Shown here: in pieces, positions 13,788-20,212 of the stretch | Position numbering within the stretch: position 1 is the first letter of the stretch | How the letters are laid out: every line of letters begins with the position of its first letter | Source of the DNA: Candidatus Stercoripulliclostridium merdipullorum | GTDB lineage: Bacteria > Bacillota > Clostridia > Christensenellales > DTU072 | DNA length: 51,520 nucleotides | Assembly: GCA_018713745.1 (NCBI GenBank) | Contig: DVOH01000011.1 | Coordinates: 1-51,520 of the forward strand | Direction: 5' to 3' | Translations under genes and position numbers: made by a program | The notes under the pieces: model-generated | Told to the model about the DNA's origin: nothing | The model's database searches: none | The model's input: the letters and a program-made list of their open reading frames with translations, nothing else

Positions 13788-14225
13788 ATGAAGCATCTCA
13801 ATTTTTTGCAGTATCGATTGGAAAACGTGGATTTTCGCGTCGTCGAAGAAAATTTGTCGGGTGTCAAATTTGCGGCGACACCGCGCCTGACGGCACAATG
13901 CGCGCGACGCGGCAATCAATATCTGGTCAAAATGACCGTCGAAATCGAAAATGACGGAAAATCGAACGTTATGCCGTTCGATCTGAAAGTGACGGCTGCC
14001 TGTACGTTTCATATCGTTGCCGACGCCGACGTCGAAACGCTTCGGCTCGAGGCAAGCGAATTTGTTTATCCCTACCTGCGCGCGTCGGTAACTTCGATCG
14101 TAACCGCTGCCAATTTTCCGCCGCATTTTCTGCCGCCTGTCGATTTCGGCAAGGTGATTCGCGGTGCAGAACCCAAAGAAAGCGGAGGGTCCGTAATCGT
14201 CCGACCGTTGGTCGATCTCGATTAA
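13788..14225 (+). CDS. SecB-like protein-export chaperone family protein
   Basis: FVYPYLRASVTSIVTAANFPPHFLPPVDF matches the SecB C-terminal signature (YPYxR...PPxxLPPxxF). Confidence 0.7.
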   Translation: MKHLNFLQYRLENVDFRVVEENLSGVKFAATPRLTAQCARRGNQYLVKMTVEIENDGKSNVMPFDLKVTAACTFHIVADADVETLRLEASEFVYPYLRASVTSIVTAANFPPHFLPPVDFGKVIRGAEPKESGGSVIVRPLVDLD

Positions 14226-14243
14226 TGAATCAACCGATATCGT

Positions 14244-14268
14244 GCGCGCCGATGTGCGCGCTTTTTAT
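14244..14268 (+). terminator. intrinsic terminator
   Basis: GCGCGC-CGATGT-GCGCGC + TTTTTATTT. Confidence 0.65.
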
Positions 14269-14301
14269 TTGAAAGCATTCCCTGTTTTCCGGAAAAATAT
14301 C

Positions 14302-14330
14302 TTGACATTCCAACTTAATGGAAATATAAT
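14302..14330 (+). promoter_or_regulatory. consensus sigma-A promoter of giant surface protein
   Basis: TTGACA-17 nt-TATAAT, perfect consensus; spacer contains TTCCA-N6-TGGAA. Confidence 0.85.
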
Positions 14331-14389
14331 AAATCTATATAGTGCTGTAATTCTTGTGAATTATGATGGCTCGTTTTGGGAGGATGGTA

Positions 14390-17300
14390 ATGAGACAGAA
14401 GCGTTGTAGCGCAGCAAAGTTGGTTTTAATCGGAATTTTTGCTGTCGCATGGATCATAGGAGGGGTGTTCGGTGTTTCTTCGCTTGCTTCCGCAGCGCCT
14501 CAGACAATTATGATTGATTTTCATGACAGCGCATATTATATCGGGGAAGTTCCTTATGAAAATCTTAACGATGCTATTGCAACGGCAGCAGACGGCGATA
14601 CGGTTAAGTTGAATTTGGAAGACCATGTTGTTCAAAATCAATCGATAAAAATCACGCAAGATATTACGCTGTCCGGTACTTTGACCACGGCGGTTCTCGA
14701 GGATGAGGACGGAATCGTCATTGAAGGCAACGTGACCTTTTCCGATTTAACCTTCCGATCCGGACATCTGATCCCGACTATAAGTGCCGTTACGGTTCGA
14801 CCCGGCGGCAAATTAACCGTTTCGGGCGGTTTGTTTTCGATTGCGGCGGGAATCGCTATCTCTGCAGATGGCGCCGTTATCTTAACCGACGGAGCGTCGG
14901 TACAACTTGAAGGAAACGGCACAATAGGTATCGTTACGGACGAATCCGCAACGGTAACGATTTCGGAATCCTCGATTGTTAACAAAGACGGTCAATATCA
15001 GATGCCCGTAGTCGTTCACTCCGGGAAGGCTATGCTGGAAAGCGGTTTGATTGAGATGGATGATACTGACTTTGTCCGTGTCAGAGAAGGCGCAGCTTTA
15101 GAAGTAATGCCCGGTTTTATGTTCGCTTCGGCGACATTGCGCAGAAACGGGCGCGCCGTTAACGAGGAAGGAAAATTCTATAACGGCATCCTGCCCGGTA
15201 TAAAAGGCGATTTGGATTTTGACGGGAATTTTGTGCTAAGAGACAGGTTTGAAGCATACCCGAGTCAAAAAACGGATTTTTATAATTATTACGGTTTGTT
15301 AGATCCGATTGTTGAGTCTGTCGAACTTCTCGAGGGAACCCCGCTTGTGTATGACTATCTGAAGCCGTCCGATCTCAAAGTAACTCTAAGCGGATATGCG
15401 GCTACACTGCATTTGGATTATACGGTAAACTGGGAAGGAGGCGATCGTTTCGGATTAAGCGGAAGCTATCGTTACACATTGGAATTCCGTCCGTCGCCTG
15501 AATCTCCCGAAGGGGTGATTGCCGATACCATCTTTCCTTATACATCCGAGATGGAACTGGAAATCGAACGTGCAGAATTGCGTTTTGAGAGATTGCCTGA
15601 ACTTTCGGACTCGGTGCGCAGAATGTATTTAGTTCCGATCGACGGTTCTGATCTCGAAGGTGCGGTCGTGTATGCCAAACGCGGTCCGGGAGAAGAGGAC
15701 TGGGGAACGCAGCCGATTGCAGGGTCGTTGCGTTTTGTCGAAGATACCTATTTACGAACCGGTACGCAACTTTATGAAATACAGTTTATACCGCAAGCCG
15801 AGGAATGTTATTTGTCCACTACCGGAACCATTACGATTGCAGACGTGGCAAAAAAGGACGATTACGCACAGGCTGAGCATTTTATGCCGCAATCGCTTAT
15901 TTACGGTCAAACAGTAGGGGAATCGCAAGTGAAAATCGACCAAAGCATCGAGTCTTTGATCGATGCCGAGGCTTCGGCTTGGCAGAAAGAAATTACGGAC
16001 CGTATGCCTACCGTCGCGGAAAGCGGAACGGCTTATCCGTATCATGTGGTTCCCTCCGATCCCGCAAATTATGCCGAACTCGATTTTGACCTGCCCGTTG
16101 TGATCGGTCATAAAAATATCGATCTGGAATGGGTTTTGCCCGACTCCACGGTTTGGAAATACCGGAGTCATCAAATTATTGAGCGTTATGGCTTTACGGA
16201 AGAAGGCGGTGAGTTTGCATACGGCTACCGATTTGCCGACGTATCGCAATTTGTAGGAGATGACCTTGCGTCGGTATCTCCGGATGACTACAAGGAAACG
16301 TTGACTTTGCCCGACGGGAAAGCCTCTGCCGCAGGGACTCATCAATTATACTATTTTACGCGAGAAAGGGGAAACTATCGTTATCAAATGCAGGGAGATA
16401 ACTTCTTTACCGTCACGATCGAAAAGGGAGATCTTCTTTTAAGCGGTACCATGCGCTATGATGCGACTCTGCCTTTATATTATTATGATTCGGTTACGGT
16501 CGGGCGCCTGAATCCGATTGATATTACGGTTGCTTTATCGGATGACGACTTTGATCCTGCTTCGGCAAATCTTGCGGTAGACTACCGGTTTGCAGACGAA
16601 GCGGCACATTTGTCGGTCGGAAGTAACGAGGTCGGTTGGCTGATGATTCCGCAGGACTCGAGTTATAATATCATCTCGGGTACTGTTACAGTCGCAAACG
16701 TTTTGGCAAGACCCATTGAATCGGTAGCGTTTCATTATATTCAAGAAATTGAGTACGGCATAGCCTACAATCAGCTGCAACTCAAAGCCGTTTGGAATTT
16801 AGACGAACAATATATTAAACTCCTTAATCTCCCTGTCGTAACGATCATATCCACAGGATATCCGGAGGTTGCGACTACTTCGTTTAATGTTCGCATTGCG
16901 ATGAACGCAGACGATCAGCATAATTTCGAATTCACCGGGCCAACCGAATATAGTTTGCGGCTGAAAGTCAATCCGGCGCCGCTTAAGCTTCAGTTGGCAG
17001 AGTCCAACACCAATTTATATTACGGTGATCTGCAGACATCGTTTGCGGCTTATGCCGACAGCAAAGGACTTTTGAAGCTCGATGAACGGATTTTAGCTCA
17101 GTACCTGAAAGCGGATGATACCGTAGAAGAAATTTTGGCAGAACTGAATGCGGTTCCGGAATTTGACGCGTTATTGGAAGGGGATCCGAGCAAGGTATCG
17201 GTGGGAGAATACCGTTACGGTGTCCGCGTAAAGTCGCTGCGCAATTATCAGCTCGATGCGATGGTGTTGAACGCCAAGTTGATCATAGTAAAAGCTAAAG

Positions 17301-18349
17301 ATCCGCTGGAAATTTCCTTGTCGTTCGACGGCATTCGCTATTTGCCGGGGGAAGCGTTCCGCTATACCGTTAAGTATAAAGGATTTTTGTATAACGATAA
17401 ACCTGAGACCGTTTTTTCGAAGTTGCCGGTGATCGAAAAAACCTCCATCGGAGAAAGCGGTTATTACGATTTGCAGGCAACGTCGGAAACCCCTAAAAAC
17501 TATAACGTAAAGTATACCAAGCATCAGGTTATTGTGATGCGGACTGAGTTTAGCGGGGAAGATTGGTATATCAAGGGCGTTGCGGTGGAACCCGATATCG
17601 ACCTGACTTTAGAAGTTGTGAAAAGAAGCGAATCAACCGGTTTGTATCGGGAAAACGAACTGGAATTTGCAAAATTCAAAAAGACCACAACGTTAGCCCA
17701 TAATTATAAAGCGACCATCATTTATCGTCTGATTTTGAGTAAAAAAAGCGATTATAATCGTTTCGAAAACATGGAAATCGGAGTGATGGCTCCCGTCCCG
17801 GAAAAAGGCCCCTTATTGTTCAGTTATTATTATCAAGATCCGGCAGACAAATATCAAGCAGTTCGGCAGGCAAACAACGGATTCACCATACTGAATATCG
17901 ACAAATTGGATCACAACGGTTATTTTGTATTGTATGCACAAAAGGAGTTAATAGACTATTGGTATTTCTTTGTGATCGGAGTAGTGTGTTTGTTGATCAT
18001 TATCATTGCAGCACTCATTGCAGCAAAACAATACAGGATTCTCCTTGCCGCCGAAGAAGCCGCCAGAATCGCGGCAGAGCGTAATGCGATTGTAGAAGAA
18101 ATCGAGGAAATCATCGGGTATCTCGATCCCGTTCTTTACGATACGCATGTTCGTTACGATGAGGACGCAACGGTAGCCGCTGTTTTGAAAGAACTGAAAC
18201 CGTATCCGCCCGAACACGAACGCTTTGTCCGTAAGACGGTCAAAAAATACAACCGAGAGCGGAGGAAGATGATGGAGCGCCAAATTAAAGAAGCAGCAAT
18301 CCGCTTTCGCGCCCAACATACGCCAGATAAAAATATAAAACTCAAATAA
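14390..18349 (+). CDS. giant cell-surface protein: signal peptide, beta-helix-like N-region, MBG/Ig-like modules, C-terminal TM and about 100 aa charged cytoplasmic tail
   Basis: GGGAGG RBS 6 nt before ATG 14390 (M10 of ORF); LVLIGIFAVAWIIGGVFGVSSLASAAP signal; WYFFVIGVVCLLIIIIAALIAAKQYR TM near C-terminus. Confidence 0.8.
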   Translation: MRQKRCSAAKLVLIGIFAVAWIIGGVFGVSSLASAAPQTIMIDFHDSAYYIGEVPYENLNDAIATAADGDTVKLNLEDHVVQNQSIKITQDITLSGTLTTAVLEDEDGIVIEGNVTFSDLTFRSGHLIPTISAVTVRPGGKLTVSGGLFSIAAGIAISADGAVILTDGASVQLEGNGTIGIVTDESATVTISESSIVNKDGQYQMPVVVHSGKAMLESGLIEMDDTDFVRVREGAALEVMPGFMFASATLRRNGRAVNEEGKFYNGILPGIKGDLDFDGNFVLRDRFEAYPSQKTDFYNYYGLLDPIVESVELLEGTPLVYDYLKPSDLKVTLSGYAATLHLDYTVNWEGGDRFGLSGSYRYTLEFRPSPESPEGVIADTIFPYTSEMELEIERAELRFERLPELSDSVRRMYLVPIDGSDLEGAVVYAKRGPGEEDWGTQPIAGSLRFVEDTYLRTGTQLYEIQFIPQAEECYLSTTGTITIADVAKKDDYAQAEHFMPQSLIYGQTVGESQVKIDQSIESLIDAEASAWQKEITDRMPTVAESGTAYPYHVVPSDPANYAELDFDLPVVIGHKNIDLEWVLPDSTVWKYRSHQIIERYGFTEEGGEFAYGYRFADVSQFVGDDLASVSPDDYKETLTLPDGKASAAGTHQLYYFTRERGNYRYQMQGDNFFTVTIEKGDLLLSGTMRYDATLPLYYYDSVTVGRLNPIDITVALSDDDFDPASANLAVDYRFADEAAHLSVGSNEVGWLMIPQDSSYNIISGTVTVANVLARPIESVAFHYIQEIEYGIAYNQLQLKAVWNLDEQYIKLLNLPVVTIISTGYPEVATTSFNVRIAMNADDQHNFEFTGPTEYSLRLKVNPAPLKLQLAESNTNLYYGDLQTSFAAYADSKGLLKLDERILAQYLKADDTVEEILAELNAVPEFDALLEGDPSKVSVGEYRYGVRVKSLRNYQLDAMVLNAKLIIVKAKDPLEISLSFDGIRYLPGEAFRYTVKYKGFLYNDKPETVFSKLPVIEKTSIGESGYYDLQATSETPKNYNVKYTKHQVIVMRTEFSGEDWYIKGVAVEPDIDLTLEVVKRSESTGLYRENELEFAKFKKTTTLAHNYKATIIYRLILSKKSDYNRFENMEIGVMAPVPEKGPLLFSYYYQDPADKYQAVRQANNGFTILNIDKLDHNGYFVLYAQKELIDYWYFFVIGVVCLLIIIIAALIAAKQYRILLAAEEAARIAAERNAIVEEIEEIIGYLDPVLYDTHVRYDEDATVAAVLKELKPYPPEHERFVRKTVKKYNRERRKMMERQIKEAAIRFRAQHTPDKNIKLK

Positions 18350-18375
18350 CCGAAAAACAAATCAAATCGGATAAC

Positions 18376-18405
18376 GAAAACACGCTTGATTCAAGCGTGT
18401 TTTTT
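18376..18405. terminator. bidirectional terminator
   Basis: AAAACACGCTTGATTCAAGCGTGTTTTT between convergent genes. Confidence 0.75.
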
Positions 18406-18406
18406 A

Positions 18407-18610
18407 TTAATCTTCCTTTCCTGCCAAATAGTCGAGACTGACGTCAAAAAAAGTTGCGACGGAAATTAAATTCGACAGGGTAGGCTCACATTGGTTGCGT
18501 TCCCACAAGCTGATAATCGATTTGCCGACTTTCAGTTCTTTTGCCAAAGCCACTTGTCCCAAACCGCGCTCCAACCGTAAATCTTTTAAACGCTCGCCGA
18601 ATGTTGTCAT
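18407..18610 (-). CDS. Xre-family HTH transcriptional regulator (67 aa)
   Basis: MTTFGERLKDLRLERGLGQVALAKELKVGKSIISLWERNQCEPTLSNLISVATFFDVSLDYLAG: classic HTH_3. Confidence 0.92.
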   Translation of the reverse strand: MTTFGERLKDLRLERGLGQVALAKELKVGKSIISLWERNQCEPTLSNLISVATFFDVSLDYLAGKED

Positions 18611-18679
18611 AATGCACCTTCTTATCTTTGCATTTTGTCCGCTCCTTTTTTATTCTATTGGTTCAAATGTACAAAAGTC

Positions 18680-18707
18680 ACGACATCCCACAAAGTTGGA
18701 ATATAAT
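18680..18707 (+). promoter_or_regulatory. putative promoter upstream of second MATE gene
   Basis: ACGACA-16 nt-TATAAT; spacer contains TCCCA-N6-TGGAA. Confidence 0.5.
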
Positions 18708-18820
18708 TATTATGCCCAATCAATGTGAAAACGGTGTGTTTTATCCGTTAAAACCATTTGTATAGTTTAGGAGGCGGAAGCCTATCGTATAGCTTTTCCG
18801 TTTGTCATAATAATATAAGT

Positions 18821-20212
18821 ATGAACGTATCAAAAAACTTGACCCAAGGAAATGTCGCCAAAGTTTTGCCGCTGTTTGCCTTTCCGTATTTGCTGGCAAA
18901 TCTGTTGCAGGCGGCGCTCGGGATTGCGGATATGGGGATTACCGCAATGTACTGCGGCGAGGGCGGCGCGGCGGCGATCGGCGTTGCAAGTCAGATTGTT
19001 TATTTGGTTGTCAATGCGGCGACGGGGCTTGCATCGGGCGCAACGATTCTGATCGGTCAGCGTTACGGCGCAGAAGATCGCGAGGGCGTCCGAAAGGCTG
19101 TTGCGACGTTGACGTCGATCTCCTTGATGGTTGCGGTGCCGACGGCAATCGGAGTAGGAGTCGGCGCAAAAGGGCTGCTCGGCTTGTTGCAGACTCCGCC
19201 CGAAGCGATGGAAGGTGCTAAGGCTTATCTCATTGTTTCAATGGCGGGCTTGCCGTTTGTCTTTGCCTATAACGGACTGTCGGCAGTGATCCGTGGACTC
19301 GGCAACAGCAAAATCCCCTTGATGATTATCGGTGGGGCAGCGATTCTGAATATCGGCCTCGATTTTGTGACGGTCGGATTGTTGAAGTGGGGTGTCGGCG
19401 GCGCGGCGGCGGCGACGGTACTTGCCGAGGCATTGTCTGCAGCGGTTGCGCTGGGATTTTTGGTACGCAAGACACCGTTTCGGTTGGGAGATTTTAAGCC
19501 GGCGTGGGATAAGGCTTCGGCAAAGGAAATCGTCAAAATCGGCTTTCCGACCGCGGTGCAAAATGCGACGGCAAGTCTTTCTTTTTTACTGCTGACCGTG
19601 ATTGTCAACCGACTGCAGGTCGCTTCGGTGCTGACCGTTGCGGCGGCGCATGCCATGGCAACCAAATTCAACAATTTTGCCGTCCTTGCACCGCGCGGGA
19701 TGTCGCAGGCAATGGCTGCAATCGTGGCACAAAACGTGGGCGCAAAAAAATTCAGGCGCAATCGGAGTGTTTTGTTGTGGGGGGTGATTTATTCGGTCGC
19801 GTTCGGTGCGGTTTTTGTTTTGGTCGCAATGTTTGCAGGGGGCGCGATATTCCGAATGCTGGGGGCGGAAGGCGAAACGCTTGCGGCAGGGATCGGTTAT
19901 CTGAAGCGTATTTCTGCCGATTATATTCTTTTGCCCCTTGCGGTTTGTCCGTTCGGAATTCTCGACGGGTACGGCAAAACTTCCTTGACCATGACAATCA
20001 ATCTCATCGGTTCTCTCGGAGTCAGAGTGCCGTTTGCCTATCTGATCGGAATCGTCAAAGGAACGGGACTTGCCGGGATCGGATGGTCGATTCCGCTTGC
20101 TTCCTTGTTTTGCGCGATCTGTGCCTGGATCGCGGTCGTCGTCGTGCTGCAACGCAGCATCAAAAAAGCGACGCGTCAGAGCACGTCGCTTTCCGTCAAT
20201 ACAGAGTCTTGA
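18821..20212 (+). CDS. MATE family efflux transporter
   Basis: VSKNLTQGNVAKVLPLFAFPYLLANLLQAALGIADMGI...; 12-TM MATE pattern. Start uncertain (TTG 18758 also in frame). Confidence 0.88.
   Translation: MNVSKNLTQGNVAKVLPLFAFPYLLANLLQAALGIADMGITAMYCGEGGAAAIGVASQIVYLVVNAATGLASGATILIGQRYGAEDREGVRKAVATLTSISLMVAVPTAIGVGVGAKGLLGLLQTPPEAMEGAKAYLIVSMAGLPFVFAYNGLSAVIRGLGNSKIPLMIIGGAAILNIGLDFVTVGLLKWGVGGAAAATVLAEALSAAVALGFLVRKTPFRLGDFKPAWDKASAKEIVKIGFPTAVQNATASLSFLLLTVIVNRLQVASVLTVAAAHAMATKFNNFAVLAPRGMSQAMAAIVAQNVGAKKFRRNRSVLLWGVIYSVAFGAVFVLVAMFAGGAIFRMLGAEGETLAAGIGYLKRISADYILLPLAVCPFGILDGYGKTSLTMTINLIGSLGVRVPFAYLIGIVKGTGLAGIGWSIPLASLFCAICAWIAVVVVLQRSIKKATRQSTSLSVNTES

Follow-up and report, generated by a model that had tools for sequence, protein, structure and literature searches.

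A 67-residue Xre-type regulator and a shared palindromic operator at predicted envelope gene promoters of an uncultured clostridial lineage

We analyzed a 51,520-nucleotide stretch of DNA from Candidatus Stercoripulliclostridium merdipullorum (contig DVOH01000011.1; hereafter the window), in which two promoters carry the same palindrome on either side of a gene for a 67-residue Xre-type helix-turn-helix (HTH) protein. One promoter precedes the gene for a predicted surface protein, the other the gene for a MATE-family transporter. With a probability of roughly 0.85, we interpret the Xre protein as an autoregulated repressor acting through this operator to block transcription from the surface protein, transporter, and xre promoters.

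A preliminary description of this region, made from the sequence alone, had quoted both promoters, and both quotations were exact. The palindromes lie at 14308-14323 (site 1, TTCCAACTTAATGGAA; identified by exact match and profile) and 18686-18701 (site 2, TCCCACAAAGTTGGAA). Site 1 occupies the spacer of the surface protein promoter (14302-14330, plus strand), a TTGACA-17-TATAAT promoter matching the consensus at 12 of 12 positions. Site 2, located where xre and MATE diverge, occupies that of the MATE promoter (18680-18707, plus strand; ACGACA-16-TATAAT). Dyad placement had been called identical; it is in register with the -35 element yet shifted by one base relative to the -10 element, as the spacers measure 17 and 16 bp. 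The genome-wide scan for GACATYCCAN6TGGAA proposed in that description returned two exact matches in the 1.73-Mb genome, both in the window (searches across this genome were pattern searches). Within the 51.5-kb window no further match appeared at up to two mismatches, with 0.68 expected at two mismatches. The shared motif is real and far beyond chance. We rejected the bare palindrome TTCCAN6TGGAA as a discriminating signal. It occurs five times in the genome versus three times for the reversed control, with two of the five copies inside genes, which makes it weak evidence by itself.

The Xre-type protein described between the two sites is indeed encoded there (18407-18610, minus strand). It is an HTH_3/HTH_19 regulator, scoring above the cut-offs of PF01381 (45.7 bits; cut-off 23) and PF12844 (43.4 bits; cut-off 30.2). 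Its gene reads from 18610 to 18407, convergent with the surface protein gene and divergent from the MATE gene, and site 2 therefore also lies in the xre upstream region. A candidate xre promoter, TTCACA-18-TATATT (18700-18729, minus strand), was recognized by consensus match only (10 of 12 positions); its -10 element overlaps the edge of site 2.

Linkage between this protein and the operator extends well beyond the window. A scan of bacterial genomes yielded 80 loci, 573 kb in total, with Xre orthologues of 60-77% identity. Within these loci, 128 of 130 YYCCAN6TGGRR sites fell at most 300 bp upstream of xre, in 68 of the 80 loci, while two composition-matched controls gave 6 and 1 sites across the same 573 kb. 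The usual form of the operator was TCCCA-N6-TGGGA. Inspection by eye of the upstream sequences in the 12 loci lacking the strict motif revealed eight TCTTAC-type, two TCCCG-type, and one degenerate operator, with none in the last locus, such that 79 of 80 loci carry an operator once variants are counted. The pairing of this palindrome with related Xre proteins recurs in roughly one hundred uncultured Clostridia of the gut. In 59 loci, two operators are positioned exactly 29 bp apart. The outer operator (O1) occupies the spacer of a promoter (TTGACT/TATAAT) reading away from xre, and the inner operator (O2) immediately precedes the start codon of xre. Both window sites are of the O1 type.

Searching for the operator together with an adjacent -10 element gave similarly restricted results. 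Among 40 genomes of the bacterial family, four places were found: both window sites, one adjoining the xre orthologue of genome G039, and one inside a coding gene. Among 396 genomes of the order, there were 34 places and none for the reversed control, most of them adjoining an xre orthologue. The others were site 1 of the window, an additional target in G175, a zinc-ribbon gene in G053 described below, two places beside a 37%-identical Xre, and three intragenic places that look like chance. In G053 (L141), a zinc-ribbon/DUF4190-like gene has an intact operator promoter, and the best Xre match in this 99% complete genome is 47% identical, making it an orphan operator. In G057 and G140 (L154, L155), TCCCA-type palindromes at other spacing lie upstream of the different, 37%-identical Xre and face a divergent short protein.

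The identity of the operator tracked the recognition helix of the adjacent protein. All 68 loci with the TCCCA/TTCCA motif encode Ser or Ala at residue 31 and Cys, Ser, or Ala at residue 41. The window protein belongs to this class (GKS..C41). In a sister clade the recognition helix reads SKG..R instead; for all eight proteins with Gly31 and Arg41, the equivalent positions are occupied by TCTTAC-N4-GTAAGA or a near variant. A search of the 396 genomes for TCTTAC-N4-GTAAGAAGTCAA returned 15 new sites, with none for the control, and all 15 adjoin a Gly31/Arg41 protein. Four genomes (G080, G152, G189, and G261) contain both operator classes, each beside the matching Xre class. Residue 31 aligns with Val33 of the P22 C2 repressor (numbering from that alignment), and a passage of PMC3865217, citing Watkins 2008, describes Val33 as contacting bases and sitting in a pocket of thymine methyl groups. 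This co-segregation of helix and operator argues for direct binding by this Xre rather than by another protein.

We then asked how the window sites score against the related loci, using a promoter profile trained on 67 other xre loci with the window excluded and 60 simulated windows for comparison. Site 1, scoring 31.2, and site 2, scoring 3.0, were the two highest-ranking places in the window, in that order; the simulated windows reached 8.6 at most. Site 1 is therefore convincing by itself, while site 2 draws support from its linkage to xre. An operator-only profile likewise ranked the two sites first and second. That the operator belongs to the Xre protein and serves it at both promoters is strongly supported by three lines of evidence: the operator at the orthologues' own promoter in 68 of 80 loci, the correspondence of operator and helix classes, and the selection of both window sites as the best two by an outside profile.

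The surface gene promoter probably descends from an ancestral cassette promoter. Its region is identical to the consensus of the ancestral promoter at 39 of 58 positions. Exactly 29 bp from O1 lies a candidate decayed O2 (TCCCTGTTTTCCGGAA; 14279-14294), a putative homologue retaining 8 of 10 operator positions. Only 0.08% of the 16-mers in the window match the O2 profile equally well, and it is the fourth best operator match in the window. At the 29-bp offset from site 2 there is no O2, as 18% of window 16-mers score as well as the sequence found there. The window thus has an xre orthologue with O1 in a divergent promoter spacer (site 2, between xre and MATE), but no further operator lies 29 bp away from that O1 toward xre; the decayed O2 is at site 1 instead.

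From these observations we propose the following mechanism. The Xre protein would bind the palindrome T(T/C)CCA-N6-TGG(A/G)A as a dimer. Since the operator fills the 16-17 bp spacer between the -35 and -10 elements of both window promoters, bound Xre should exclude RNA polymerase, making repression of the surface protein and MATE genes the likeliest outcome. Binding at site 2, which overlaps the likely xre -10 element on the other strand, would at the same time limit expression of xre. An ancestral two-operator cassette found across related Clostridia (xre, O2, 29 bp, O1, divergent target) may have given rise to the window arrangement. In this lineage the predicted targets would be the surface protein gene, whose promoter keeps the decayed O2, and the MATE gene with a second O1-type site. 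As the Xre protein lacks a sensor domain, relief of repression must come from its own level, a partner protein, or another regulator.

Targets in the relatives are varied. Among 64 divergent products scanned, 37 matched a zinc-ribbon model and 30 matched DUF4190, with the divergent start sites picked by rule, a few of which may be wrong. Other products included radical SAM, AbrB/MazE-like, and polysaccharide deacetylase proteins as well as lipoproteins. Zinc-ribbon/DUF4190 proteins, which are two-helix membrane proteins, are the commonest divergent partner, although roughly half of the relatives have a different divergent gene. The window departs from the usual layout in that MATE is divergent, the surface protein is convergent, and no zinc-ribbon/DUF4190 gene lies beside xre; only distant relatives of these proteins are encoded elsewhere in the genome. 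The topology of the window (target B, convergent xre, divergent target A) is found in G175, where both targets are zinc-ribbon genes and each has an O1 promoter.

Two further palindromes were observed in the window genome (G000). On contig C15 (53271-53286; L014), TTCCATTAATATGGAA directly follows the TATAAT box of a predicted lipoprotein gene, and its operator score of 18.7 exceeds those of both window sites. This gene is a possible third target. The preliminary description had proposed a self-contained regulon of regulator, surface protein, and transporter; the three members are supported by linkage, helix class, and profile, but "self-contained" is not, given that the lipoprotein promoter palindrome outscores both sites. 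On contig C47 (284-299; L016), a longer palindrome, TCAGGATTCCAATATAATGGAATCCTGA, covers the -10 element of a TTGACA promoter leading into a structured-looking, terminator-ended stretch that gave no match in Rfam. We set this copy apart from the operator set because of the longer palindrome to which it belongs and its position at a -10 element upstream of an apparent structured RNA.

Several findings weigh against this interpretation. At site 2 the spacer is 16 bp, the -35 element is poor, and O2 is missing; the score of this site (3.0) is below the 8.6 of the best simulated window, though its linkage to xre makes a chance origin unlikely. The decayed O2 at site 1 may no longer bind. Both window sites are known from a single genome of the genus. 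The TCTTAC class forms one clade (support 100/97) in a tree that, built from 67 columns, resolves little beyond it. This indicates a single switch followed by strict co-inheritance, and the co-segregation of helix and operator is then one evolutionary event rather than many.

Similarity of the two window sites could in principle be a coincidence, a short dyad combined with promoter hexamers. Across the genome, the bare palindrome only slightly outnumbers its reversed control, with two of its five strict copies lying inside genes. We regard such a coincidence as extremely improbable, given the 34 places with operator and adjacent -10 element in 396 genomes against none in the control, only three of which look like intragenic chance, and the first rank of site 1 in the match list of a profile built without it. 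It is also highly improbable that another regulator owns the palindrome, with xre merely one of its targets. Operator linkage by itself does not distinguish a regulator from a target that looks autoregulated, and several other Xre-type proteins are encoded in the genome. However, the operator class switches together with the recognition helix class of this very protein, genomes with both classes pair each operator with its matching protein, and operator promoters across the order are mostly found beside an xre orthologue. A third explanation, that the locus is a degenerate prophage or the immunity module of a mobile element with a C2- or ImmR-like repressor, draws on the nearest solved structures (ImmR of ICEBs1, P22 C2, and SinR), on RstR as the best NCBIfam match, and on the resemblance of two operators in divergent promoters to lysogeny switches. 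We consider it very unlikely, and rejected a phage immunity repressor (RstR, C2, ImmR) as an assignment. The RstR match was below the cut-off (51.1 versus 80 bits), and 2.9 million viral contigs contained one distant relative only (36% identity) and no match to the operator promoter. The neighbouring genes encode permease, YitT, SecB-like, MATE, and UvrC proteins, and in relatives the target genes code for membrane proteins, lipoproteins, or enzymes.

The direction of regulation deserves separate consideration. Dyads between -35 and -10 elements are activated mainly by MerR-type twisting of the DNA, at promoters with spacers of 19-20 bp. The window spacers of 17 and 16 bp and an HTH_3 regulator led us to discard a MerR-type activated promoter. 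Nevertheless, Xre may activate, or act both ways depending on concentration, as do RcoLS20 of plasmid pLS20 and the controller proteins of restriction-modification systems. Regulators with two operators in overlapping divergent promoters can have a dual role (PMC4207663), the ancestral layout places O2 upstream of the -35 element of the target, and the poor -35 element of the MATE promoter (ACGACA) would suit activation. We find this unlikely, as a protein bound at O1, within the spacer of a promoter at or near consensus, should keep polymerase out, and the surface protein promoter, a perfect consensus match, needs no activator.

The predicted surface protein (1328 residues; 14363-18349, plus strand) has an N-terminal signal-like segment and a C-terminal transmembrane segment with a tail. 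It had no match among Pfam or NCBIfam families, and its relatives within the bacterial family are weak and partial, such that conservation was unusable as evidence. A terminator hairpin (18376-18404) separates it from the convergent xre gene. Upstream lies a gene for a SecB-like protein (13788-14225; PF02556, E = 5e-10); in this clostridial genome it directly precedes the giant surface protein gene, with a terminator in between (14242-14261). The MATE transporter gene (18821-20212, plus strand) probably starts at the ATG at 18821, the longest open reading frame beginning at 18758, and its product matched PF01554 (E = 7e-48) and, above cut-off, TIGR00797.

Autoregulated Xre repressors with palindromic operators are already known, and relatives with solved structures include ImmR, P22 C2, SinR, and C.AhdI. 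Like ImmR, P22 C2, and lambda-type repressors, the protein described here belongs to the same HTH family by sequence, with palindromic operators in overlapping divergent promoters and likely autoregulation. Unlike them, it consists of the HTH only, in 67 residues, with neither a C-terminal oligomerization domain nor a protease-sensitive one; it was not found on phages as far as searched, and its putative targets are envelope genes. Overlapping divergent promoters for regulator and target with multiple operators are shared with RcoLS20 (PMC4207663). RcoLS20, however, is tetrameric, loops DNA over distant operators, and targets conjugation, whereas here there are two short operators 29 bp apart, or a single one at site 2. 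The controller proteins of restriction-modification systems are similarly tiny Xre-fold proteins with their own palindromic operators, but control restriction genes, often as activators, and none of these was recognized in the immediate neighbourhood examined. In the open-licence literature searched, no paper was found describing the cassette, its operator code, or its layout, and the family is in this sense new.

More broadly, it is somewhat probable that these loci represent a widespread, previously undescribed family of mini-regulons in uncultured Clostridia, each with one 67-residue Xre repressor, one operator class, and one or two envelope targets, the target being exchanged between lineages. 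A switch in the recognition helix would have produced two mutually insulated classes (TCCCA with GKS..C and TCTTAC with SKG..R), sometimes in one genome. These co-segregating classes provide a small, testable case of a repressor and its operator changing specificity together. For an uncultured lineage with little known regulation, sequence alone allowed us to propose a regulator together with its DNA code and the genes it likely controls. That one putative switch may govern both a surface protein and a transporter suggests controlled changes of the cell envelope.

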